DNA from: Tepidanaerobacter acetatoxydans Re1
GTDB taxonomy: Bacteria; Bacillota; Thermosediminibacteria; Thermosediminibacterales; Tepidanaerobacteraceae
DNA length: 64,000 nt
Reading direction: 5' to 3'
Assembly (NCBI RefSeq): GCF_000328765.2
Contig: NC_019954.2
Coordinates: 2,629,780-2,693,779, forward strand
This document shows positions 1,841 through 27,822 of this stretch, piece after piece (within the stretch, counting starts at the first letter, position 1; each line of letters opens with the position of its first letter). The notes beneath the pieces were generated by a model. It did not search any database. It was given only the letters and a program-made list of their open reading frames with translations, and had not been told where the DNA came from. Made by a program: the position numbers and the translations under genes.

Positions 1841-2836
1841 TTATTCTTTACTTCGGGTTATAATTATTAAGCCATAAACACTTATAATTATTATCATGAG
1901 GAAGAAGATCAGGTATATTATAAATTGAGGATTGTCGCGTAATCTTATTTTGCCTTTCGGAGAGGTTTGGCCGCTTTCATCTTGTGCTGCTTGTTTTGGT
2001 TTTACAAAGTATGCACTATAAATATCCCCATCACTGTCAATTACCAACCCATCACCAGAAAGCTGCACATTAAACGCCAAGTCTTTAAGGTAAGTTTGTG
2101 TCGGCATTAAATTTTTTTCTTCGGCTGCCGTAACCACCATTAAATGTTTCTTGCTGTTAAATGGCGAAGCCAGCAGTTGCAGAGATGACAAACCCCTGCT
2201 GTAGTCTTCAAGTAGATAAATTTTATCACTTGGTTCAAATTTTTCAAAGTTCTTATCAAACTTTATATACAGTTTATCGTTTAGATTTTTTATAGCAACA
2301 TTGTCCCAAGGTGTACCGATAACTATAATATTGTTGTGGGTTGTTTCAAGTTCGGTGCCTTTTATCACCGATAGGTTTTCCACTCTACTTACACTATGCC
2401 CTATAAATGCTGTTATATTTGCTGCCATTGTAAGGTAATTTTGGTTTACTTTATCTGGGATCACTAATAAAACATCATCAAATGTGCCGTTTTTTATAAA
2501 CATGTCCGGATAGTACTGAAAAAATCTGTCTTCAATAACTTCTTGAGGAATATTAAAGCTTGTATCCTTTGATATTAAAGCCCATATATCTCCGTAACGC
2601 CAATTTTTGCAGTCAAAATCATGTGGCTCAAGATAAAAAATTAATTTTAATTCTAAAGAATCGGCATCTCTAAATTCTTCCGGTATTTTTACTGTGATCT
2701 CATCGTTATCTGCTCTATCTTTACTTAATAGTTTGTTGGTTACCGGTATATTGTTTAAATAAACTGTAACAGAAGATTTGTCAAAATCCAGCGCCCCTGC
2801 ATATCGCAGAGGAATTTTTATAGAGGAATTCTTTTT
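1841..2836 (-). pseudogene. BcsB-like exopolysaccharide subunit, C-terminal part beyond a frameshift
   Basis: Translating the minus strand from just after the A7 run at 2832-2838 gives an open frame of about 330 residues that continues the upstream BcsB-like protein. It opens with KNSSIKIPLRYAGALDFDKS, then a carbohydrate-binding-like beta region, and ends with one transmembrane helix (FIIYLIFFLMIIIISVYGLI) and a short basic tail, the membrane anchor expected of BcsB. No ribosome binding site or start codon lies near the break; the first ATG (2503) is internal to the domain. It would be made only if the frameshift is bypassed, for example by slippage on the A-run, or if the base is an assembly error. 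Confidence 0.75.
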
Positions 2837-4250
2837 TTAACCTGTGATTTCTGGGCAGATTTATCGTATATGTTGCCTGCTGATAAAATATTCCTTTAAG
2901 TATGGTATCTTCATATCCTAAATCTTTCAGGGTCAATATATCAGTCTGTTTTTCGGCTTCATAATTTTCAACATCATTTTTTAATATAAATTGAGTATCT
3001 GTTTTCATTTGTAAGATTAAATTATCTAAAGTCAGAGACCTGGCTGCTGTAAGCAGCATTTCATCGTTATCTGATATTAGATAGAGTATACGTTTAGACG
3101 TATCATTTGGTGACGCTTTTTCTTTTATTAAGGCTCTATTTTTTAAATCGGGTAATTCTTTTCTTATCGGTTCAAAGATTTGATCGCCTGTATCAGCAGA
3201 GCTGCCTATAACAATAAAATTGGTATTTTCATCTATGTTTTTTATATCACTGTAATGCACTACTTTAACATCCACATTGTTGTAAGGAACTCTCCGCCCA
3301 AAATCTGCCGCAATCACCATGGCAGCAGTTATTTGACTATTATTGGCTCTATCCGGTACCGCTATGATGCAATTAACCGGCTCTAAAGCTGATACTTTAA
3401 GGTAAGGATATGGATAATCATTGATTCCAATTTTATCCGGAATTTCTTCATACTCTATATGTATGTATGATTCACTGTGAAGTGTAATCCAATTAGCAGG
3501 ATTTAGGTCATCAGTGCAAGATTCTTCAGTAATTCGATGATATGTAGAAAATTTAATGGAGTTATAGCCTTTTATGATTTGTTCTTTTGGCAGCGGTATC
3601 TTTTCTATTGCTTTATAATCTGCTTTGTCACTCAATGTGATGCTTTTTATCGGCATATTATTAACGAGCACTGTCAATGTAGAATTTTTATATTTTTTTA
3701 TCTCGCTTTGACTAAATACTAGTTCCAAAAAGCAGTCATCCTTTACCTGCCAGTTTTCATCGACAAAAAAGAAAATGCTGTGCCCCCCAAAGATTCCTTT
3801 TATTGTAGCATCTTCTGACATAGGAATATTTTTTACCATGTTCTGTGTATTTGCTGTAATTTTCGGAGCTTCAGCAGCTATATTTGCAGCCGTATTTATT
3901 ATATCTGCCGGCAAGCCAGTTGAGGTTACCATAGGTTTGGTCGTTGATTCTTGAGTGTGTATTAAAGTTTCAAAGCCTAGAGCTTGCAGTTTATTTGCCA
4001 CTTCTTTTGCAGTTTGCATATCTTTATAATTCCCTACATACAAACGAGTTCCGCCTGCAACAGTAAACTTATATGCAGGGAATCCCTTTGTTTTTAGGTT
4101 ATTGTAATTTTCTTCAAGTACTGCTTTATCTTTGTAAAAGCCCGCCTGAACAACATAATAAATGTCTTGCTTTGATTCAGCGTAAGCACTAATAGCACTG
4201 CTATTTAGTAATACAACAAAGATAATGATTATACATGTTATCTTTTTCAT
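2781..4250 (-). CDS. SPOR-domain BcsB-like exopolysaccharide synthesis protein, N-terminal part
   Basis: Extracytoplasmic accessory subunit for a membrane polysaccharide synthase. The N-terminus is a signal peptide (about residues 1-24). Residues about 28-100 look like a SPOR domain (YVVQAGFYKD ... RLYVGNYKD), which in other proteins binds peptidoglycan glycan strands. After a linker comes a BcsB-like region with paired beta-sandwich and flavodoxin-like units (IFFFVDENWQVKDDCFLELV; TNFIVIGSSADTGDQIFEPI). The real homology stops at about NHRLK; the last 20 residues are out of frame because of the extra A at 2832-2838. The intact product would be about 800 residues. It lies 9 bases downstream of the GT2 synthase, its expected partner. 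Confidence 0.8.
   Translation of the reverse strand: MKKITCIIIIFVVLLNSSAISAYAESKQDIYYVVQAGFYKDKAVLEENYNNLKTKGFPAYKFTVAGGTRLYVGNYKDMQTAKEVANKLQALGFETLIHTQESTTKPMVTSTGLPADIINTAANIAAEAPKITANTQNMVKNIPMSEDATIKGIFGGHSIFFFVDENWQVKDDCFLELVFSQSEIKKYKNSTLTVLVNNMPIKSITLSDKADYKAIEKIPLPKEQIIKGYNSIKFSTYHRITEESCTDDLNPANWITLHSESYIHIEYEEIPDKIGINDYPYPYLKVSALEPVNCIIAVPDRANNSQITAAMVIAADFGRRVPYNNVDVKVVHYSDIKNIDENTNFIVIGSSADTGDQIFEPIRKELPDLKNRALIKEKASPNDTSKRILYLISDNDEMLLTAARSLTLDNLILQMKTDTQFILKNDVENYEAEKQTDILTLKDLGYEDTILKGIFYQQATYTINLPRNHRLKKEFLYKNSSAICRGAGF
2832..2838 (-). other. A7 homopolymer at the frameshift in the BcsB-like gene
   Basis: The plus strand has seven T in a row, so the mRNA has AAAAAAA. Six A would join the two halves into one frame (LKKNSSIKIPL). 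A slippery run is the usual place for phase variation, transcriptional slippage or sequencing error. Confidence 0.8.
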
Positions 4251-4259
4251 GGCAACCCC

Positions 4260-5516
4260 CTAGAATCTTTCAGTCTTATACCAAATATGTTCTCTTTTAA
4301 AAATCGAGTCTTTTATGTAAGAATATATGCCGGAAAGACACACTGCAATCCAACACTGGCAATAAGTAAGATACATCATTACCACAAGTAAAAAATTGCT
4401 TAAGTTATACTCGCCCTTTTCCATTGTAAGGTTTATGCTTATTTCTAGAATAAATAATATATAGGCTAACATCCATATTATTATAAAATTGCCGGGCAGT
4501 GAAATTTTACTTATATTTAGTAAGCCCAGAATAAAAATAATGTCCGATGATATTACTGCAAAAAAGAACAAACAGCTTTCTAAAAGTCTGTAATAAAGAT
4601 CGATAAGTATTGAACCTGAACATTTTGGGAGAGGGAACAGATATTTGCTGAGAACGTAAATATTCCCTTTCACCCATCGAGTCCTCTGTTTAAACCACAC
4701 CCGAAGGGTTTCCGGCTCTTGCTCCCAGGATACTGCCTTTGGCATAAAGGCTATTTTGTAGCCGTTCATATATATCCTGATGCTTAACTCGGTATCCTCA
4801 GCTATGGCCTTAGAATCCCAGCCTCCAATCTGCTCTAATAAATCTTTTCTTACTATAAAATTGGTGCCTGGCAAAAGACACAGTCTAAAGCGCTTCCATC
4901 TGCCACCCTGAATCATCCACTGAAAACTGAGAGTTTCTATATTTATAAATCTTGTTAAAAGATTTGTATCTTTGTTCCGGGTTCTGAACTTGCCGATTAC
5001 CGCACCATATTCCTTTGAATTGGTAATCTCGTAAACAAGATAGCGCAGCGACATAACCTCAGGTGTGTTATCTGCATCATAGACAACTATATAATCTCCA
5101 TTTGCATGCTGCAAGCCGGTATTTAGCGCATTCGCCTTGCCTCTGCCGCCTGTTATACTGTCAGTCGTTATGATTTTTAGATTTTCGAAAGGGTATCTGG
5201 ATTTAATATTTTCCAAGATAGCACCTGTATTGTCTTCCGAATTGTCATTTATTACTATTAATTCCCGTTTGCTTTTTGGATAGTCCATCTTCAGCATTGC
5301 CATAACTGATCTTTCAATAACCTTTTCTTCATTATGTGCAGGCACTAATATAGAAATTGTCGGATGGTTTGTAATACCCCTTACCACATCAATCTTTTTT
5401 TCCTCTGTTTCCTGAAAAAAACTATAACCTGCAAAGGACAGCCATGCATTGAAAAGCAGCAAAATCCAAATTGCAAAAAGCGAATACATAAAAAAATAAT
5501 CTACCGTTTTCAGCAA
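4260..5516 (-). CDS. Processive family 2 glycosyltransferase (exopolysaccharide synthase)
   Basis: Membrane-embedded polysaccharide synthase of 418 residues related to BcsA/PgaC/NodC. A transmembrane helix (about 8-30) precedes the cytoplasmic GT-A domain. Catalytic landmarks are present: D91 (INDNSEDN), DADN with D147/D149, AEDTE with D241 as catalytic base, and QRTRW at 277-281, the QxxRW acceptor motif of processive enzymes. Three or four C-terminal helices form the translocation channel. There is no C-terminal PilZ domain, so c-di-GMP control, if any, must come from another subunit, and the degenerate GGDEF protein of the operon is the obvious candidate. The sugar polymerised is not determinable. 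Confidence 0.92.
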   Translation of the reverse strand: MLKTVDYFFMYSLFAIWILLLFNAWLSFAGYSFFQETEEKKIDVVRGITNHPTISILVPAHNEEKVIERSVMAMLKMDYPKSKRELIVINDNSEDNTGAILENIKSRYPFENLKIITTDSITGGRGKANALNTGLQHANGDYIVVYDADNTPEVMSLRYLVYEITNSKEYGAVIGKFRTRNKDTNLLTRFINIETLSFQWMIQGGRWKRFRLCLLPGTNFIVRKDLLEQIGGWDSKAIAEDTELSIRIYMNGYKIAFMPKAVSWEQEPETLRVWFKQRTRWVKGNIYVLSKYLFPLPKCSGSILIDLYYRLLESCLFFFAVISSDIIFILGLLNISKISLPGNFIIIWMLAYILFILEISINLTMEKGEYNLSNFLLVVMMYLTYCQCWIAVCLSGIYSYIKDSIFKREHIWYKTERF

Positions 5517-5526
5517 TTATATTCCC

Positions 5527-7167
5527 TCATTCTTTAAACAGATGTTCTCTGCTCTGTCTTCTCCTATCTAAGAATATATAAAGGAGTCGAAAGCAGATAA
5601 GAAGCACTAGAATTATTAAATATAGCAGTATCTTTCTAAAAAAAGGTATTAATTGTGATTCCTGTCTGTTTTTTACTTCTTTAATTGCAATATCGCCATC
5701 TTGCGAACGAATTATGTAATTTTCACCCTTTACCCAATTATCATCTTGTTTTAAATCAAGAAATCGTATATCGCGTTTTTTAATTTCAGAGATTACATCT
5801 TTCAGCAGATCTATATCAAGATAAGGGTGAAAATAAAATCCGGCAGTATAGTCCCTCACTATTGAAAGCTTATCCAGCTCTTCCAGTATATGCTGCCTGT
5901 ATAATACATCCTCAGGATCTACGTAGCCAAGGTTTTCAGGAATAAGTCGGTTATAAAGTGGAGAATCGTATAGCCTATAAGGAAATGCAGTAGTTGTATA
6001 GCCCTTATCCGATGTCTGCAAATGGCCGACTATTGTAGAAAAATACATTTTTAGCTTTTTGTACCCTTCTCTTGAGATAGCATAGTGAGGCGCTTCAAAT
6101 GCCAAAGGCACTATGCCTGTTGCTGTGCACTCATTAATTGCGGCATTTATTCGCTCATCAACCCATTTCCCCATATCAACATCGAGCGGTCGGTCATTTT
6201 CTCCATCCCAGAATTCAAAGCCCTCCCCAGGTATATCTTCATGAATCTGGTGCGTATAGCCGTGCAGTAAAATAGTTCCACCTGAATCCTGCATGTATTT
6301 AATAATATAGCTAAATTGCTTATCATCTCTCATATTGTAGATATTTTTTGTTTTTACATCATAAAATGCAGGAATTAATGCCACCATATATGGTATACCC
6401 TCTTTGTTAAAATAATCTGCTATTTCGCAGAGGTTATTTATAGATGTTTGAGCATGGACATCTTCTATGCGCACATAAATTTGAGGGTTTTCATCATGAT
6501 ATTCTTCAAAAAAATCGTGTAAGACATCAGCCAGTATATAAAATAAGACTCCTTGTGTATCAAGGCAGGATACATACCACAAATTTGATATTTTAATTAT
6601 ATATGGATATAAAGTGTGCCCATCGCTTAAACTGCTTACTACTTTGCCGGCATTATCTTCCGCAGTAACTTTTTGAAAAAGGCGCTCAGTCTTTAATATG
6701 AACTCTTTACCTTTATACTTAACTTTTATAGGTTTGAGATCCTTACCTGCAAATGCTATACCATTGCGGGGATTGTGCTCAATAAAAGCTTCTATTCCAA
6801 TACCAATAAAAAGTAGTGGATTTTTATACTTTGCCATATCATCCAGCAGTATTTCACTTAAATTTTCGTTGGAAATTCCCACATAGACTGTCCTGTCATA
6901 CTTGTGCATCATGCCGCTTTTATAGTACGAGGCGGGTATTTCTTCCACTGCAACATTGAAATGGTAAAAGAGATGACTTATAGCAGTAACTTCATCGGTT
7001 TTAAATCCAAGGTAGTTTCTCCTGTCATAAATTACCAGAACGTTTTTCACATCATTTTCTCTTTTTATTAATTCTCGGGCTGTGGCAGGATTATTTGAAA
7101 ACGTCAGACATGTAATCAGTATCAATATTTTTGCAGTTATGCCGCAAATTTTACTCTTATACATCAT
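5527..7167 (-). CDS. DUF2334 deacetylase-like membrane protein of the exopolysaccharide operon
   Basis: A 546-residue exported protein with an N-terminal signal peptide and a C-terminal membrane helix (about 505-528) followed by a basic tail, so the enzyme domain faces outside. The central domain has the polysaccharide-deacetylase-like fold of DUF2334: YVRIEDVHAQ (near residue 232), LLHGYTHQ (near 300), FEAPHYAIS and FHPYLD. These supply the Asp and His residues that bind metal in CE4-type deacetylases. In this operon the likely job is to deacetylate or trim the growing polymer outside the membrane (inference). The start overlaps the upstream GGDEF gene by 11 bases. Confidence 0.85.
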   Translation of the reverse strand: MMYKSKICGITAKILILITCLTFSNNPATARELIKRENDVKNVLVIYDRRNYLGFKTDEVTAISHLFYHFNVAVEEIPASYYKSGMMHKYDRTVYVGISNENLSEILLDDMAKYKNPLLFIGIGIEAFIEHNPRNGIAFAGKDLKPIKVKYKGKEFILKTERLFQKVTAEDNAGKVVSSLSDGHTLYPYIIKISNLWYVSCLDTQGVLFYILADVLHDFFEEYHDENPQIYVRIEDVHAQTSINNLCEIADYFNKEGIPYMVALIPAFYDVKTKNIYNMRDDKQFSYIIKYMQDSGGTILLHGYTHQIHEDIPGEGFEFWDGENDRPLDVDMGKWVDERINAAINECTATGIVPLAFEAPHYAISREGYKKLKMYFSTIVGHLQTSDKGYTTTAFPYRLYDSPLYNRLIPENLGYVDPEDVLYRQHILEELDKLSIVRDYTAGFYFHPYLDIDLLKDVISEIKKRDIRFLDLKQDDNWVKGENYIIRSQDGDIAIKEVKNRQESQLIPFFRKILLYLIILVLLICFRLLYIFLDRRRQSREHLFKE

Positions 7168-8008
7168 ATTCCAGCTCTTTTTCCAATCGATGTCTTATTT
7201 CAAATACATCATCAGTCTTGCCATCATAGGGCATAATACCTATTTTAAAATTAAAATTGAGTTTTTCTTCTTTTTTCCCCGAATTTAGAGTTATGCTGCT
7301 TAAGTTTGTGCGTATTCGGCTTTTTATCACTTCAGCACCCTTTTTATCCGTATTTGGAAGAATGAAAGCAAAAGTATCATCTTCTAATCGATACTTTTTA
7401 TCCTCTGTTCTTAATGTATCTTCAATATTTTTTACCATTAAAGACACCACATCATCAGTCTTGCTTTTGCCGTAAATATCCGTTAGTTCTTTAAAAAACA
7501 TTATCCTTACAATCATAAAAGATAGAGTAAATCCATGCCTTTTGGCCCGCCGAATTTCCTCACATAGATCTTCATAAAATTTTTGCTTATTACCTAAGCC
7601 TGTAAGATTATCCACTCTTACCAATATTTGCACATTCTTCTTTAATTCTTTTACAACTTTAAAAGATTTGTTAACACATTCGCCTAACCGGCTTGAAGTA
7701 TATGCAATAACAGGAAAGACCATGAGCCAAAAATAATCCTTTAAAAAAGTAAAACTAAAGATCCCTCCAAAAATTGCCTCATACAAAATGTAGCTTCCAT
7801 ATGCAAAGACTAAGAACAGTGCGGCAAAAAGCCCCATAACCAAATTTGTAGAAAAGGACCACAGTGCAAGGAAAAAACCGGAAGATAGCAATATGTAGTT
7901 CTTATGGCTTATCATATCAGGATTTAGAAAAAACATTGATATTAAAACAAAAAACTCCAAGATAAGTAAAACAAAATAAATTTTAATCTTTTTGCTTTTA
8001 CCGTTCAT
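7157..8008 (-). CDS. Membrane protein with degenerate GGDEF domain and intact I-site (candidate c-di-GMP receptor)
   Basis: 283 residues: about four transmembrane helices in the first 105 residues, a coiled linker, then a GGDEF-family domain from the landmark DNLTGLGNKQKF (133-144). The active-site motif GGDEF is replaced by EDDTF (209-213), and the metal-binding aspartate region reads MIVRIMFFK, so diguanylate cyclase activity is not expected. Exactly five residues before EDDTF is RTED (200-203), the RxxD inhibitory c-di-GMP-binding site at canonical spacing. This matches known receptors PelD and Listeria PssE. It overlaps the GH8 gene by 4 bases and the DUF2334 gene by 11. Confidence 0.88.
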   Translation of the reverse strand: MNGKSKKIKIYFVLLILEFFVLISMFFLNPDMISHKNYILLSSGFFLALWSFSTNLVMGLFAALFLVFAYGSYILYEAIFGGIFSFTFLKDYFWLMVFPVIAYTSSRLGECVNKSFKVVKELKKNVQILVRVDNLTGLGNKQKFYEDLCEEIRRAKRHGFTLSFMIVRIMFFKELTDIYGKSKTDDVVSLMVKNIEDTLRTEDKKYRLEDDTFAFILPNTDKKGAEVIKSRIRTNLSSITLNSGKKEEKLNFNFKIGIMPYDGKTDDVFEIRHRLEKELEYDV

Positions 8009-9147
8009 TTCACACCCCCAAATCCTTGCAGTGCCAGTAGTGCCTGCAAATTATCAAATGAGTAAACTTTTAAAGTTGTTGGATCACCGAACGCACCGCA
8101 AATAGGACTTGTTTTATCACTGATTTGGAACATCAAAAGTTTTGCTTTCATCATTTCATATAGCTCATTGTCTTCAATATTTTTTGCAATTCTACAGGCA
8201 ATGGCATATGAGGCAGCAGACTGTAAATCAGAAGCCGGCTGTGACGAGTTTATTCGGTAACTGTTAAACAGCGCATTATTCATTCTTATTTGGCCTTTAA
8301 GCCAGTCTATAGCTTCAGGAGGGCACATTCCCACTTCACTAAGGTGAAGCAGTATGTTTAAATAATCTATAATGTTAATCTCCTGTTCTTTACTATAGCT
8401 TTTTGTTTTATAACTATAAGTTTTCCTAAAAAATGGTTTGTCTTGTGATATAAAAGCATTGTCTATAATTTTTAGACCTTTTTCAAAAGCATTTCCCCAA
8501 TCACTGTCGATTTGGGATAGAAGTTTCATCGTATAAAGGTCTATATAAGAAAGAGTTATAGTGTCCGCTTTCGTTTTACTCTCAGCATCATAGTAGCCCA
8601 CAAGGCCTTCTTTTGTAAACTCGTATTTTTTTACCTTGCGTGCAAGTTCATTCAAAAATGTTTTATATTGCATATCTTGCCAGCGGTCAGATGCATAGAT
8701 AAGAGAACGAACTATTCTTAGATCGTCTACCGATGCCGAACTTTTAGTAAGCAGCTCTCCTCCTGATCCTACCCTCCACATTATGACTCCGTTATCTAAA
8801 ATCATGTTCCTTACTATGTTAAAATGTTCATCGAAAAGAGATTTATTACCTCCTTGGACTGCATAAAGCATTATAAGGCCTTCAGATTCTGATAACACTT
8901 GATGACCTGTTGCCCATTCATTTACTTTATAATCATCCAAAAAATTAGTAAAAATCCCTTGCTCGCCAGACATCTCAGTTTGAATAAATTTTAAGCATAT
9001 GGTTTCTTCAGGCTTGCTGGAAAATGTTTTCCATTCTATATTCAGCTTAATAGAAACTTGCTTTAAATACAATAAATAAAACAAGTACAAACATATAATT
9101 GCAACTATAATAAGTATGATTCTTTGGATATGTTTTGTATTTGCCAT
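8005..9147 (-). CDS. Membrane-anchored family 8 glycoside hydrolase (BcsZ/PssZ-like)
   Basis: First gene of the exopolysaccharide operon, 380 residues. An N-terminal signal anchor (about 9-28) leads to an extracellular alpha/alpha barrel. GH8 landmarks are VLSESEGLIMLYAV (84-97), where the SEG glutamate is the catalytic acid, and ASVDDLRIVRSLIYA (138-152), corresponding to the DxDL region of BcsZ. Such hydrolases trim or release the polymer made by the neighbouring synthase. The substrate is probably the operon's own product rather than environmental cellulose (inference). Confidence 0.85.
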   Translation of the reverse strand: MANTKHIQRIILIIVAIICLYLFYLLYLKQVSIKLNIEWKTFSSKPEETICLKFIQTEMSGEQGIFTNFLDDYKVNEWATGHQVLSESEGLIMLYAVQGGNKSLFDEHFNIVRNMILDNGVIMWRVGSGGELLTKSSASVDDLRIVRSLIYASDRWQDMQYKTFLNELARKVKKYEFTKEGLVGYYDAESKTKADTITLSYIDLYTMKLLSQIDSDWGNAFEKGLKIIDNAFISQDKPFFRKTYSYKTKSYSKEQEINIIDYLNILLHLSEVGMCPPEAIDWLKGQIRMNNALFNSYRINSSQPASDLQSAASYAIACRIAKNIEDNELYEMMKAKLLMFQISDKTSPICGAFGDPTTLKVYSFDNLQALLALQGFGGVK

Positions 9148-13165: not shown

Positions 13166-13630
13166 TTAGCCTTCAATTGATATGTTTAATTCAATTACTA
13201 TATCCTCATCAACAATAACTTCAACACACAAAACCTTTTCAGTACTTAATTTTGTTGTAATGTTTTCCCCATACATGAGGGTAGGAGTTGAAATACTAAT
13301 ACCTACGTTTTCCTTAGAAAACTCTGTACTTGCATTTGCGGTAAGCATATTGGCAAGCTCAGATAAAGCACTTTGAGCCATTTCATTAAATTCATCGACC
13401 GGCATGCCCATCATCATTTTTGAAGAAATTTTTTTTGCATCATCCATATTCATAGAATATACTACATTTCCTTTTAAATCCCCAACAATGCCTATTATTA
13501 TAAGTATACCGTCTGTCTGCAGCTTTTTCCCTTTAACACTTAATTTGCCTCTTTTAATACTTTGAAATCCTATTTGCGGCATCACGTTTTGGAATGCCAT
13601 CAAAAAAGGGTTTACATGTTTTGCATCCAT
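13166..13630 (-). CDS. cheX: CheX-like phosphatase domain protein
   Basis: 154 residues, a single CheX fold. CheX dephosphorylates CheY-P through an ExxN motif, here SELANML with E91 and N94, preceded by the characteristic helix EFNEMAQSAL. The gene overlaps the upstream receiver-CheX gene by 19 bases, so the two are probably co-translated. Both catalytic residues are present, so activity on a receiver domain, perhaps of its neighbour, is plausible. Confidence 0.85.
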   Translation of the reverse strand: MDAKHVNPFLMAFQNVMPQIGFQSIKRGKLSVKGKKLQTDGILIIIGIVGDLKGNVVYSMNMDDAKKISSKMMMGMPVDEFNEMAQSALSELANMLTANASTEFSKENVGISISTPTLMYGENITTKLSTEKVLCVEVIVDEDIVIELNISIEG

Positions 13631-14484
13631 TCAGAATCACCCCTACTGAAGCCAATATTTAAAAGCATTTCGCCAAATTCTGTATCAATAATTATTGAAG
13701 AAGTCTTAAATTTTGCCGACGATATATTTAAGCTCTTTCCATAGAATACAGAAGGGGGCGACACTCTTAATCCAAAAACTTTATTCTCTCTGTTTAACAT
13801 TGAACAAGCATTACCTGAAATAATATTGGCAAATTCGCCAATAGCAGCTATAATTTCATTAGCTTGTTTACATTCTCTTTTAAGCATTTTGTTTGACAGA
13901 TCAGTCGCAGTTTCGATAGACATATCAAGTATCATTCTGCCTGAATATTTACCTATTATACCAATTACTACAGCTATCCCCTTTGATTTCATCGTTTCGC
14001 TGGAAAGATGTTCATCTTTATATTTAGCTATAGTTTTTGTCATCTTGTTTAGCGCGTCTGAGAAAGCCTCTTTAAATACTGGTACGTATAAATTTTTAAA
14101 ATATTTAAATAATTCTTCGTCATCTATTAGCCTTTGAATCGTCAGTATGAATTCTTCTTCATCTATGGGCTTTTGTACATAGCCGTTTACATCGTAATCT
14201 TTAGCTTTTTTTAACATCTCATCATCCATCATGGAACTTACTATCACAATTTTAATATCTTTATTAATCTTACGTATCTCTTTAGTGCATTCGAAGCCGT
14301 TAGTTCCGGGTAAGGTTATATCCATTGTTACCAAATCCGGCTTTGTTTCAGACACAACCGATATCACATCTTCTAGCGAACCTGCATGTCCAACTACTTC
14401 GAAACCGTTTTTTTCTAAAATGTCTTTAATAATTAAAACGGAAAAATCCGAATCATCAACTATAACCACTCTTTTTTTATCCAC
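13612..14484 (-). CDS. Response regulator: receiver-CheX fusion
   Basis: About 290 residues. The N-terminal receiver domain is complete (VVIVDDSDFS; phospho-acceptor D55 in TMDITLPGTNG; SSMMDD; KPIDEEEF). A linker leads to a C-terminal CheX domain (about 135-290) that keeps the phosphatase pair E217/N220 (GEFANIISGNA). The start is uncertain: GTG at 14484 follows AGGAGG by 12 bases, while ATG at 14493 lies only 3 bases from it; the frame is open back to 14508. The fusion could dephosphorylate its own or another receiver. Confidence 0.87.
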   Translation of the reverse strand: MDKKRVVIVDDSDFSVLIIKDILEKNGFEVVGHAGSLEDVISVVSETKPDLVTMDITLPGTNGFECTKEIRKINKDIKIVIVSSMMDDEMLKKAKDYDVNGYVQKPIDEEEFILTIQRLIDDEELFKYFKNLYVPVFKEAFSDALNKMTKTIAKYKDEHLSSETMKSKGIAVVIGIIGKYSGRMILDMSIETATDLSNKMLKRECKQANEIIAAIGEFANIISGNACSMLNRENKVFGLRVSPPSVFYGKSLNISSAKFKTSSIIIDTEFGEMLLNIGFSRGDSEWMQNM

Positions 14485-14861
14485 GGCTCTCATCTCCCTC
14501 CTGTACAAACCAGTTTTGTGATAATATATATAATATTACCAATTTCTCGACCGATTTACAACTAAAATAGAAAACAAATTAGTATATATTTAATCGGCAG
14601 TCAGCTTCTTCTTAAGATTTTGAACTTCTGCAAAAAAATTAAATAAAATTGCATAAGCATATGAATTGTATAATTTTATAGCATATCGTCGACTGTCTCA
14701 GCCTGAAAATTAAAACCATCGATTGCCTTGTGATTCAGGTAAAATACCGAAACATCAGTTTAACATATCTTGCCAATGTATAATTTATAATCTATAATTG
14801 TATTCGAGTTAGACAATACGGTTTTAGAAAATTTTAAAAGGCACTTAAAAGAGGTGATTTC
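14485..14861. other. Divergent intergenic region of the signalling island
   Basis: AT-rich 377-base gap between the receiver-CheX gene and the divergent kinase-like gene. It must hold both promoters, but no confident -35/-10 pair, hairpin or repeat stood out. TATAAT-like strings near 14778-14800 are candidates only. Confidence 0.4.
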
Positions 14862-16001
14862 TTGGATAATCAATATAATTTGCAAAACATTAACCAAGAT
14901 AAAAAGCTGGCAGATTACATCAATCAGTCAAAATCAGACGGTTTTTCACTCGAAATTGAAGCAAAAAAAACAAATAAAAGCATTGAGTGTTATATCATTG
15001 GTGCTAATGAACATTACTGTGAAAGGGTAAAAATTAAAAAAAATGACCTCATCGGTGCTAATATTAAAGATATTGACGATGAGTTTAAACATTTATACTA
15101 CCAGTTAATATATTATCTCATTGAGCATAATACAGGAGATTTTTTTAATTTATATATAAAAAAAGACCAAGAAAACTTTGAAATAATAGATATTGATAAA
15201 AATTATATATATGACATTGAAAATGAATTCTATGAAATAATGACATGTGTTTTTGACAGAAGCGTCACATCCTTGAGGATATTTTTTGTTGTAAGAAACT
15301 TCGATAAAGAAATAGAAATTATCAACAGGATAGGCAAAATATTGGAAATCAATAGTTATAATGATAAAATCACAAATATATCTGAAGTTGTTTCAAATTT
15401 AACTCATTCTTGGAGGCAGCCTCTAAACAGTTTAAACTTTTCTATTATTAATTTCAAAGATGAGATAATCGATGCGACCGGAGATGTAAAACTTGTAAAT
15501 GAATATTATAACGAAATATGGGCTATCTTAGAAAGTCTTTCTAATAAAATCGAAAAGTTTAGAAGCTTTTTTGAGAGAAATTACGAAGAAAAGCACTATG
15601 ATTTGATTCAGTATCTTGATCTAATTTTCGAGATTTTAGATGAGAAGGTAAAAAAAGAAAATATTCAAATACATATAGATGCTAAAGATTCTTTCGAGGT
15701 ATATGGTTCACCTAATGAATTTGTGCAAATAATGTACTGCATATTCTTTGATATTATAGAGCACTGCAAGGCTCATTTAGATATTTTTAACAGAAAATTA
15801 AATATGGAAATTTATAAAGATGAAAAAAATGCTGTTATAAGCATACAAATCATATTTGATAGGCAAAAATACACTGATTTTACACTGGATTTAGAGCATA
15901 TGCATGCATTTGCCCATATTATACATGAAATTTTGCAGGGCAGCATTGATTTAATAAATGGTGAAATGGAAAATAAAGTTATAATTAGGTTTCCTTTGTA
16001 A
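14862..16001 (+). CDS. Degenerate histidine kinase-like protein
   Basis: 379 residues, soluble. The N-terminal half resembles a divergent PAS-like sensor. H182 lies in SNLTHSWRQPLNSLNF, a clear HisKA phospho-acceptor box. The following ATPase region is badly eroded: the N-box position reads FDIIEHCKAH without the expected asparagine, and no glycine-rich G1/G2 boxes are visible. It is probably not an active kinase but may dimerise or accept phosphate. The TTG start follows AGAGGTG. Its last codons and stop are duplicated 21 bases downstream. Confidence 0.75.
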   Translation: MDNQYNLQNINQDKKLADYINQSKSDGFSLEIEAKKTNKSIECYIIGANEHYCERVKIKKNDLIGANIKDIDDEFKHLYYQLIYYLIEHNTGDFFNLYIKKDQENFEIIDIDKNYIYDIENEFYEIMTCVFDRSVTSLRIFFVVRNFDKEIEIINRIGKILEINSYNDKITNISEVVSNLTHSWRQPLNSLNFSIINFKDEIIDATGDVKLVNEYYNEIWAILESLSNKIEKFRSFFERNYEEKHYDLIQYLDLIFEILDEKVKKENIQIHIDAKDSFEVYGSPNEFVQIMYCIFFDIIEHCKAHLDIFNRKLNMEIYKDEKNAVISIQIIFDRQKYTDFTLDLEHMHAFAHIIHEILQGSIDLINGEMENKVIIRFPL

Positions 16002-16021
16002 ATAATTAGGTTTCCTTTGTA
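15981..16021 (+). repeat. 21-bp tandem duplication over a stop codon
   Basis: ATAATTAGGTTTCCTTTGTA occurs at 15981-16000 and again at 16002-16021 with one A between. The first copy encodes the final residues and stop of the kinase-like gene; the second lies in frame after the stop. It looks like a recent replication-slippage duplication. Confidence 0.9.
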
Positions 16022-16040
16022 TGAATTAGGGGAGGTTGCT

Positions 16041-16814
16041 ATGCAAGATATAAATGTATTAAAAAGTATAAAGGTTCTTTATGTAGAGGATGAACCTATC
16101 ACGAGGAAGCAAGTATGTAAATTCCTGAGTAAGCGAGTAGGTAAAGTGTTCGAAGCAGAAAACGGAAAAGACGGAATAAAAAAATTCATCGAATTTAAGC
16201 CGGATATTATAATAACTGATTTAGTAATGCCATATATGAACGGAATCGAAATGATGAAAAAATTAAGAGAGGATGGATTTGATTGTCCATTTATCATTAC
16301 ATCCGCTTTATCTGACTCCGGCACTATTTTGGAAACAGTAGATTTAAAGATTGATAAGTATCTGATAAAACCTATAAATGTTGATATCTTGCTGGACAGC
16401 TTGACTCAAATAGCTGCTAAAATCATAGAAAGAAAAACAGATTCGATAGTTTTAAAAGATAACTTAATGCTAACAGAAGATATGAAAAATGAGCTTGAAG
16501 TAGAAATTAGAAATATATATTCTAAATATCTAAAAAAAGTTATAGGTAAAGGTGCTAAACTTATTAAGGTATTTATTAACGGAAGGGAAATAGAAATTTT
16601 CGCAAAAGAAAATTTTACTACACTGGAAGAAAGCTTGCTGTCTACCGGATATCATTATAAAAGTATAGAGGTCGTTCGAAAAACGATATATGATAATACA
16701 ATACATGAAGTAGAAAATCAGATATCCGAATTAATAAACAGGAAAGTGTCTGTAAAAGAAATAGAAATTTCTCCTAAGGAAAAATTTGAAAGAATTTTAA
16801 TAAAAATCATATAG
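16041..16814 (+). CDS. Response regulator: receiver-DUF2294 (MpsC-like) fusion
   Basis: 257 residues from the ATG at 16041, which follows AGGGGAGG; the frame is open upstream into the duplication. The receiver (about 8-130) has VLYVEDEP, phospho-acceptor D60 (IIITDLVMP), TSALSD and KPINVD. The C-terminal 110 residues (from LEVEIRNIYSKYLKKVIGKG through RILIKII) match DUF2294, the family of the Na+-dependent potential-generating protein MpsC. The output of this domain is not established. It is in the same reading frame as the upstream kinase-like gene, separated by one stop. Confidence 0.85.
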   Translation: MQDINVLKSIKVLYVEDEPITRKQVCKFLSKRVGKVFEAENGKDGIKKFIEFKPDIIITDLVMPYMNGIEMMKKLREDGFDCPFIITSALSDSGTILETVDLKIDKYLIKPINVDILLDSLTQIAAKIIERKTDSIVLKDNLMLTEDMKNELEVEIRNIYSKYLKKVIGKGAKLIKVFINGREIEIFAKENFTTLEESLLSTGYHYKSIEVVRKTIYDNTIHEVENQISELINRKVSVKEIEISPKEKFERILIKII

Positions 16815-16832
16815 TGTAAATTAAAATAATAT

Positions 16833-16861
16833 TTGACAAAACTTGTTATTTATGATATTTT
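16833..16861 (+). promoter_or_regulatory. Putative promoter ahead of the cheV leader
   Basis: TTGACA (16833-16838), 17-base spacer, TATTTT (16856-16861). Transcription would start near 16868 and give a leader of about 240 bases before cheV. Confidence 0.45.
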
Positions 16862-16867
16862 ATTATC

Positions 16868-17032
16868 AAGCTTTTGACTTCGCATTTCTATTTACATGCA
16901 GCAAAGCTTATCGACAATAAACGCAGATATATTTATGATATAAGCTGTGTTTATTAAAATTAATTAAATAAATAATTTAAAATGACTGTGGAGCAGCTAT
17001 TTTTATCAAATGAAAATTTGCAATAAAAATAG
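16868..17032 (+). promoter_or_regulatory. Structured 5' leader of cheV with possible anti-terminator
   Basis: Three potential stems in order: AAGCTTT/AAAGCTT (16868-16909); AATAAACGCAG/CTGTGTTTATT (16916-16926 with 16945-16955, one G-U pair); and CTATTTTTAT/ATAAAAATAG with inner CAAAT/ATTTG (16997-17032). The last one shares bases 17025-17032 with the following terminator stem, so the two cannot coexist. No known riboswitch consensus was recognised. Confidence 0.45.
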
Positions 17033-17079
17033 TCCATAGATAAAAGTTTTTCATGCTTTTATTTATGGACTATTTTTTT
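17025..17079 (+). terminator. Strong intrinsic terminator just upstream of cheV
   Basis: A 22-base-pair stem (one G-U pair) formed by 17025-17046 and 17056-17077 with a 9-base loop, followed by a run of T. It ends about 30 bases before the cheV start, so it either ends the upstream transcript or works as an attenuator for cheV. Confidence 0.85.
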
Positions 17080-17109
17080 ATGAAATTTAGTCAGGAGGGA
17101 GGTAAGCTT

Positions 17110-18024
17110 ATGAATGGCAGCAATATATTACTGGAAACCGGAACTAATGAATTAGAGATTGTAGAATTTCAAATACAAAAAAGCAACTTTGGAATCAATG
17201 TAGCTAAAGTCAAGGAAATTATAAGATATGAAAAAACGGTTAAAATTCCAAAAGCTCATCCATGCATACACGGAATGTTCAAATGGAGAGATTCGGTAGT
17301 TTCTGTCATCGATTTACCTAAATACCTAAATCTGGATTCGGGCAAGGTTTATAGTAATAGAGATTTTTTTCTAATAACTTATTTTAATAAAACCATGGTT
17401 GCTTTCATCGTTAGTCACGTAATTGGAATTAAGCGTTTATCATGGGAAGAAATCGAAAAGCCGAGTTCTACGATTTATGGTGAAGTTGACGGAATCATCA
17501 ATGGCGTCGTAAAAAACAGTGATGGTTTAGTATCAATTTTAGATTTTGAAAAAATTTTAACTGATATCAGCCCCGGCACAGGTATTCAAGTTAGCAGTGT
17601 AGCAAAAACGGGTAATAAGGCAAGAAACCATAAACCTATCTTAATAGTCGACGATTCACAAACGCTGTCAAGAATGATTGAAGATTGCCTGACAAAAGCC
17701 GGGTATCAAGATTTGATTACAGCATCTAACGGAAAGGAGGCTTGGGATATACTTCAAAAAATAAAAGAACAAGATGATAAGCCGCCTAATGAGCTTTTAT
17801 CCTGTGTCATATCTGACATTGAAATGCCGCAGATGGACGGGCACCATCTAACCAAACGCATTAAGGAAGACCCTGTGCTGCATACAATTCCGGTAATATT
17901 GTTTTCATCATTGATTAGTGACGATATGAAGCAAAAAGGTGAAAAAGTGGGAGCGGATGCTCAGATTAGCAAGCCTGAAATCGTTAATCTGATTAATGTG
18001 ATTGATGGATTAATTGAAAAATAA
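17110..18024 (+). CDS. cheV: Chemotaxis coupling protein CheV (CheW-receiver)
   Basis: 304 residues from the ATG at 17110, preceded by AGGAGGGAGG; an upstream in-frame start lies inside the terminator and is rejected. The CheW-like domain (about 1-150; IVEFQIQKSNFGINVAKVKEI) couples receptors to CheA. The receiver (about 178-304) has ILIVDDSQTLS, phospho-acceptor in VISDIEMPQMDG, and SKPEIV. CheV adapts receptor arrays through phosphorylation. CheA and CheW are not in the window. Confidence 0.93.
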   Translation: MNGSNILLETGTNELEIVEFQIQKSNFGINVAKVKEIIRYEKTVKIPKAHPCIHGMFKWRDSVVSVIDLPKYLNLDSGKVYSNRDFFLITYFNKTMVAFIVSHVIGIKRLSWEEIEKPSSTIYGEVDGIINGVVKNSDGLVSILDFEKILTDISPGTGIQVSSVAKTGNKARNHKPILIVDDSQTLSRMIEDCLTKAGYQDLITASNGKEAWDILQKIKEQDDKPPNELLSCVISDIEMPQMDGHHLTKRIKEDPVLHTIPVILFSSLISDDMKQKGEKVGADAQISKPEIVNLINVIDGLIEK

Positions 18025-18053
18025 ATTATAAAAAACGGAGGCGTTATTATTCA

Positions 18054-18425
18054 ATGGATAAAATAAAAATCTCAATTATAAGTAATGAGACACCATTGAG
18101 TGAAAGAATAAAAGACATGTTAAACAGCCTTAATATTTTTGAAGTTGATTGTGTGGATAATATAGAAAAATGTAGTAATTATTATGACATTCTCATGATC
18201 GACATGGATTCTTTTAAACGCGAAAGTCAAAAGGCTCTCATGCAAATAATCAAAAAACTCAGCAGGCATAAAAAAATTATTCTTTTAAAGGATATGGATC
18301 ATGCAAACTACTTACAAAAAATAAATATTTTAACCAAACCGCTAACGGAGATGAAATTAATTAATGCCATATGTAATTCGATGATGGAAGATTTTCCCGA
18401 AGATATATCCGAAATTATTGTGTAA
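18054..18425 (+). CDS. Small degenerate receiver-like protein
   Basis: 123 residues with the outline of a response-regulator receiver: a beta strand KISIIS, a possible acceptor in ILMIDMDSF (D50 or D52), and NILTKPLTEMKLINAI, equivalent to the conserved Lys-Pro. The acidic pair that binds magnesium is replaced (IISNETP), so phosphorylation is doubtful. It starts 29 bases after cheV behind GGAGG and is probably in the same operon. Confidence 0.7.
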   Translation: MDKIKISIISNETPLSERIKDMLNSLNIFEVDCVDNIEKCSNYYDILMIDMDSFKRESQKALMQIIKKLSRHKKIILLKDMDHANYLQKINILTKPLTEMKLINAICNSMMEDFPEDISEIIV

Positions 18426-26850: not shown

Positions 26851-27822
26851 ATGAATAAACCGCTTCGTGTACTTATTGTCGATGATTCAGAAGATGACAC
26901 CCTATTGTTGGTACGCAAATTAAAGCGAGATGGTTTTAATCCAACTTTTGAACGCGTAGATACTCCTGAGGCCATGGAAGACGCTTTATCTAAAAATACA
27001 TGGGATATAATACTCTCAGACTATAATATACCGCGTTTTGATGCGTTTGCAGCTCTTGACATGCTTAAAAAAAGCGGGATTGACATACCTTTTATTATCG
27101 TATCGGGAGCTATCGGAGAAGAAACAGCAGTCGCGGCCATGAAAGCCGGTGCTCATGACTACGTCATGAAAGACAACTTGGCAAGATTGGTCGCTGCCAT
27201 TGAGCGCGAATTAGGCGAAGCGCAGATAAGGCATAAGAAAAAAGAAACAGAAAAGCAGCTTGAACACTCGTTTTTTGACTTGGCCGAAACGGTTGCTAGG
27301 GCAATGGATTCCCGCGATCCATATACAGCCGGTCATGCTCGCAAAGTAGCTGAATATGCCCGTAAAATAGGTGAGAAAATGGAATTGGATAGGGATAAAA
27401 TTAATGGGCTTTATGTTTGCGGCTTACTTCATGATATAGGTAAGATATCAATACCTGAGAGTATTCTTTGTAAACCCGGCAGTTTAAGCGAAGAAGAATG
27501 GGCGCTCATGCGTACACATACAATTAGAGGCTATGAAATCTTAAAGAATTGCAGCTTGCCATGGCCAGTAGCAGATGTTGCGCTCCATCACCATGAACAG
27601 TTAGATGGCTCAGGCTATCCGGATGGCCTTAAGGATGATGAATTAAACCTTGAAAACCGCATTATAAGAGTCTGCGACGTGGTAGAAGCAATGAGTTCAC
27701 ACCGCCCTTACCGACCGGCAAAAAGCATTGCAGAGGTTATTGACGAACTTAAGAGCGGCCGAGGTCTTAAGTATGACTCCAATATTATTGATGTAATGCT
27801 GCAACTGTTGGAGGAAGGATAA
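26851..27822 (+). CDS. Response regulator with HD-GYP domain (c-di-GMP phosphodiesterase)
   Basis: 323 residues. The receiver (about 5-125) has LIVDDSEDD, phospho-acceptor D57 (ILSDYNIPRF) and an MKD variant of the usual KP. The HD-GYP domain (about 140-320) keeps the full catalytic signature: DPYTAGHARKVAEYA, HDIGK (194-198), THTIRGYEIL, HHHEQLDGSGYP with GYP near 254-256, and DVVEAMSSHRPYR. It should hydrolyse c-di-GMP under control of the adjacent kinase. The ATG follows GAGAGGAG. Confidence 0.93.
   Translation: MNKPLRVLIVDDSEDDTLLLVRKLKRDGFNPTFERVDTPEAMEDALSKNTWDIILSDYNIPRFDAFAALDMLKKSGIDIPFIIVSGAIGEETAVAAMKAGAHDYVMKDNLARLVAAIERELGEAQIRHKKKETEKQLEHSFFDLAETVARAMDSRDPYTAGHARKVAEYARKIGEKMELDRDKINGLYVCGLLHDIGKISIPESILCKPGSLSEEEWALMRTHTIRGYEILKNCSLPWPVADVALHHHEQLDGSGYPDGLKDDELNLENRIIRVCDVVEAMSSHRPYRPAKSIAEVIDELKSGRGLKYDSNIIDVMLQLLEEG

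Follow-up and report, generated by a model that had tools for sequence, protein, structure and literature searches.

The window, i.e. the whole stretch of 64,000 nucleotides analysed here, covers positions 2629780–2693779 of the 2.76 Mb, single-contig genome of Tepidanaerobacter acetatoxydans Re1. It carries a five-gene operon on the minus strand, whose genes overlap or stand approximately 10 bases apart. The genes are given below in the order of transcription, with three short motifs of the second gene.

8005–9147, minus strand: GH126-like glycoside hydrolase, YdaJ/PssZ-like, first operon gene (Pfam GH8, 36 bits; PDB 3REN, E-value = 4e-70; 6R2M, E-value = 2e-21)
7157–8008, minus strand: degenerate-GGDEF putative receptor, YdaK/PssE-type, four membrane helices (Pfam GGDEF, E-value = 4e-27; AlphaFold2 pLDDT 89.6; conserved operon slot)
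7490–7516, minus strand: MIVRIMFFK codons of the receptor (residues 165–173), where the metal-binding Asp of active cyclases is missing (alignments)
7400–7411, minus strand: RTED codons of the receptor (residues 200–203), primary I-site (WspR RSSD alignment; kept in 77 of 83 members)
7370–7384, minus strand: EDDTF codons of the receptor (residues 209–213), degenerate GG(D/E)EF (no GG[DE]EF in any aligned member)
5527–7167, minus strand: DUF2334 protein, YdaL/PssB-like (PF10096, E-value = 7e-56; homologues in the same slot)
4260–5516, minus strand: GT2 synthase, YdaM/PssC-like, without PilZ (PF13641, E-value = 2e-33)
1841–4250, minus strand: BcsB-like subunit with an N-terminal SPOR domain, YdaN/PssD-like, split by a frameshift (PF03170 in each half, with a weak second match)

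The second open reading frame encodes 283 amino acids and, tightly packed in the operon, is a real gene. The original prediction described its product as a four-helix membrane protein with a dead GGDEF domain and an intact I-site, and each of these features is borne out. In an alignment with WspR, RTED coincides with the RSSD I-site and EDDTF with GGEEF, i.e. the I-site motif lies five residues upstream of the altered GGDEF motif as proposed; the loss of the metal-binding Asp at MIVRIMFFK is also seen in the alignments. The AlphaFold2 model, built with a 41-row alignment (the pLDDT given above is the mean), displays four long N-terminal helices at positions 2–28, 35–53, 56–81 and 88–131, followed by a GGDEF fold. 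A Foldseek search with this model matched GGDEF structures, some of them c-di-GMP-bound, e.g. 3ign with a TM-score of 0.84 by target length. Pfam shows no GAF domain in the protein, and there are no pel genes among its neighbours.

The predicted absence of PilZ from the synthase is confirmed, as Pfam finds no PilZ match in the GT2 protein. The Bcs cellulose synthase, which requires PilZ on its GT2 protein, was rejected as the system type on this ground. The GT2 sequence shares 52% identity with Listeria PssC and 47% with its Bacillus glycinifermentans homologue. The hydrolase had been called GH8. It is closest to 3REN (CPF_2247, GH126; the alignment extends over 333 residues) and next to 6R2M, which we take to be Listeria PssZ. 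Similarity to GH8 is weaker: the Pfam GH8 score compares with a cut-off of 24 bits, and the best chain named glucanase (5gy3) gives an E-value of 6e-5. The GH8 label was dropped for GH126 on these values, and the reason why GH126 proteins such as PssZ had the GH8 label is given in PMC7479077. Compared with CPF_2247 and PssZ, the window hydrolase differs in being encoded in the same operon as the receptor and in a predicted membrane anchor formed by its N-terminal helix. Rfam at gathering thresholds shows no RNA family, riboswitches included, in the window. Receiver-domain-like and chemotaxis-like open reading frames are found near the operon (window positions 13166–18425).

The arrangement has a close counterpart in ydaJKLMN of Bacillus (PMC5422440, PMC7064775, PMC13274460), which displays the same five-gene order and a synthase without PilZ. 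Its second product, YdaK, resembles the window receptor in having four transmembrane segments, approximately 283 amino acids, a degenerate GGDEF motif and RxxD five residues upstream. In B. subtilis YdaK the I-site R202xxD205 precedes SDERI by five residues, c-di-GMP is bound with a KD of about 1 uM, and either R202A or D205A stops exopolysaccharide (EPS) formation; EPS production from ydaJKLMN requires cyclases, and YdaK switches the EPS machine on (PMC5422440, PMC7064775). The window differs in the SPOR domain and frameshift of its BcsB protein; SigB control is a feature of B. subtilis ydaJKLMN. In all comparisons B. glycinifermentans sequences stand in for B. subtilis, where Pfam matched DUF2334 and BcsB in the control genome. 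The B. glycinifermentans receptor carries the YdaK-like motifs RETD, KKFRP and SEERF. Identities between the five window proteins and their B. glycinifermentans homologues are 23–47%, with 27% for the receptor.

The Listeria pssA-E operon (PMC4125290) is related as well. It encodes DUF2334, GT2 and BcsB proteins and a degenerate-GGDEF receptor, PssE, that is homologous to the window protein and binds two c-di-GMP molecules per protein with a Kd of 0.79 uM. An annotated Listeria record gives the order membrane protein, DUF2334, GT2, BcsB, degenerate GGDEF. Thus in Listeria the receptor gene is last, PssA is present as an additional membrane protein and the gene for PssZ lies outside the operon; the window has no PssA and its receptor is second, so the Pss order is not seen there. 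A receptor tree, computed quickly, with some long branches and with the I-site columns left out, groups the window protein with those of Lysinibacillus and B. glycinifermentans (a set of 22 rows, SH-aLRT 99); Listeria PssE falls in the opposite part, together with the Paenibacillus and Lactobacillales sequences. The suggestion of a Pss-type EPS system outside Listeria is correct in so far as Pss is a homologous sister system, but gene order and the phylogeny that had been proposed as a check both place the window with Bacillus YdaJKLMN. PelD and PssE had been named as known comparators, and both are degenerate-GGDEF c-di-GMP receptors (PMC7112168, PMC4125290); the closest known relative, YdaK, had not been named. 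PelD of Pseudomonas aeruginosa and Bacillus cereus uses the same mode, with a degenerate GGDEF, c-di-GMP binding at RxxD and control of an EPS synthase, but has a GAF domain and is accompanied by pel genes (PMC7112168). Both proteins were set aside as closest relative in favour of YdaK on operon order and the tree. By homology, the window protein is probably a distant member of the YdaK type of receptor, for which B. subtilis YdaK and Listeria PssE are the characterized examples.

A single-sequence search of genome contigs with the receptor gave no match, and wider relatives were taken from a GT2 profile scan that yielded 80 named loci. Two arrangements dominate among these. The Yda order is found in B. 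glycinifermentans (L124), Lysinibacillus (L122) and several Clostridia. Listeria, Paenibacillus, Enterococcus and lactobacilli show the Pss order, in which the receptor gene comes last. In some Clostridia the operon starts with the receptor gene, and the hydrolase gene either stands at its end or is missing. Thirteen loci of the same phylum, the window among them, have the receptor; the GT2 and BcsB-like genes follow downstream in 12 of these, and the 13th is cut by a contig end. A locus from a bin labelled Deltaproteobacteria (L125) shows the receptor with RxxD intact, DUF2334, GT2 and the hydrolase, and BcsB was not detected; contamination is possible. A second GGDEF gene adjoins Pss-type operons at L051, L052, L054, L061, L065 and L069 and in G450, G465 and G535. 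Its product has approximately 524 amino acids in Paenibacillus and approximately 800 in the others, and is perhaps a dedicated local cyclase.

The bcsB gene of the window is interrupted. Frame analysis shows a jump of one base at an A7 run (window positions 2834–2840), and the two halves combined match intact relatives. The jump may reflect a true mutation, slippage or an error in the sequencing, and the EPS machine of this strain may not be functional. It is possible, though on balance doubtful, that the operon is decaying, i.e. that an ordinary YdaK-type receptor here serves an EPS machine made non-functional by the broken bcsB. In addition to the frame jump itself, two same-genus genomes are in line with decay: bcsB of G001 (L024, 12130–12431) is cut short and loses similarity near the end of the contig, perhaps through an insertion, and G002 gives no match to the DUF2334 protein. 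Against this, the remaining four genes are conserved and show no interruption, sequencing often produces false indels at homopolymers, and some product could also be regained by transcriptional slippage at the A7 run. Even a decaying operon would be compatible with a receptor role of the protein itself. Another GGDEF protein encoded in this genome (L149, 1175–2231; G000:C1 near 1812189–1812713) also seems frame-broken, a second possible lesion of the homopolymer type.

Each of the 83 aligned family members carries a degenerate GGDEF motif, and GG[DE]EF occurs in none of them. RxxD is kept in 77 of them, many only 20–30% identical, and all keepers also show R157 and R or K at position 231. In the subset of 79 members less than 85% identical, R200 is present in 72 and D203 likewise in 72, which places both among the best-kept columns, while columns of the GGDEF motif are kept in 30 to 58%. 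Since RxxD persists at such low identity while the GGDEF-motif columns drift, its retention in the window protein is, as judged from these alignments, far from chance.

The six members that have lost RxxD are all Lactobacillales: E. faecalis (a plasmid-collection record), Enterococcus rivorum (two copies), E. moraviensis, two Ligilactobacillus and Secundilactobacillus hailunensis. Both R200 and D203 are absent from these proteins; position 231 is altered in most of them, and position 157 in both Ligilactobacillus sequences. Homologues without the I-site still hold the operon slot (L045, 10336–11196; L085, L086, L090, L097, L102, L146), and Pfam GGDEF gives no match in the three of them tested. 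Cyclases were sought with PF00990 at an E-value of 1e-6 in five loss genomes, the whole genome of E. faecalis being left out. Four of the five gave no match; the fifth, S. hailunensis, has three. A canonical GGDEF protein is present in all 38 RxxD-keeping genomes (19/19 in a first search and 19/19 in a further one). Fisher's test for the link between I-site and cyclase gives p = 4e-5, but many of the further keepers are closely related among themselves. The tree needs only three I-site changes, so that independent support comes from two of three losses, the third being in a genome with cyclases. At this level of support, I-site decay alongside cyclase absence is an evolutionary argument, one that does not depend on bench experiments, that the putative I-site reads c-di-GMP.

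The host genome itself has two intact GGEEF cyclases with RxxD, several HD-GYP-type matches and one PilZ protein outside the operon; no EAL phosphodiesterase was found in it. Since intact cyclases and HD-GYP proteins are both encoded, the host very likely both synthesizes and breaks down c-di-GMP. One HD-GYP-type (HD_5) match, likely a c-di-GMP phosphodiesterase, lies inside the window (27289–27786; G000:C1:2657068-2657565).

That Enterococcus and Ligilactobacillus homologues have persisted in their operon slot despite I-site loss points to a role beyond c-di-GMP binding, and the window protein could be a purely structural subunit, with a GGDEF fold that serves synthase assembly and senses no c-di-GMP in this host. 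This is improbable, as the four I-site positions are strongly constrained in the window protein and 76 other members and the host genome has cyclases. A still-active diguanylate cyclase with an unusual active site is scarcely credible: some degenerate motifs do work, e.g. AGDEF of VCA0965 (PMC3974145), but here GG(D/E)EF and the metal-site Asp are both gone and no aligned member carries GG[DE]EF.

The preferred reading, held with high confidence, is that the protein is a YdaK-type c-di-GMP receptor in a YdaJKLMN-type EPS operon, with YdaK and PssE as the models from which c-di-GMP binding, dimer, synthase contact and activation are extrapolated. The GGDEF domain would no longer make c-di-GMP. 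Instead, c-di-GMP, probably as a stacked dimer, would be bound at the I-site by R157, R200, D203 and R231. The four membrane helices would keep the GGDEF domain beside the GT2 synthase and the BcsB-like subunit, and a change on c-di-GMP binding would switch the synthase on, the equivalent of PilZ control in BcsA. The basis for this here is homology, operon order, loss of catalytic residues, I-site conservation together with its decay in mostly cyclase-less lineages, and the two host cyclases. The central proposal of the original prediction, that a dead GGDEF domain with an intact I-site is the c-di-GMP receptor of a PilZ-less EPS synthase, is thus well supported by homology, conservation and the pattern of I-site decay, and binding and activation are expected by analogy.

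A broader interpretation appears evenly balanced. The GGDEF-fold protein may be an obligatory structural subunit of the whole synthase class and the I-site a removable lock; in cyclase-less Enterococcus and Ligilactobacillus the I-site would have decayed while the subunit stays, freeing the synthase from c-di-GMP control.

YdaJKLMN has been tabulated in Bacillus and related genera only (PMC13274460), so the members in Clostridia extend its reported range within the open-access literature. YdaK-type c-di-GMP control of EPS would thereby be extended from Bacillaceae to anaerobic Clostridia, and Yda and Pss appear as alternative layouts of a single widespread system. The Lactobacillales in which the I-site has decayed, most of them without cyclases, provide natural variants lacking this site for comparison.
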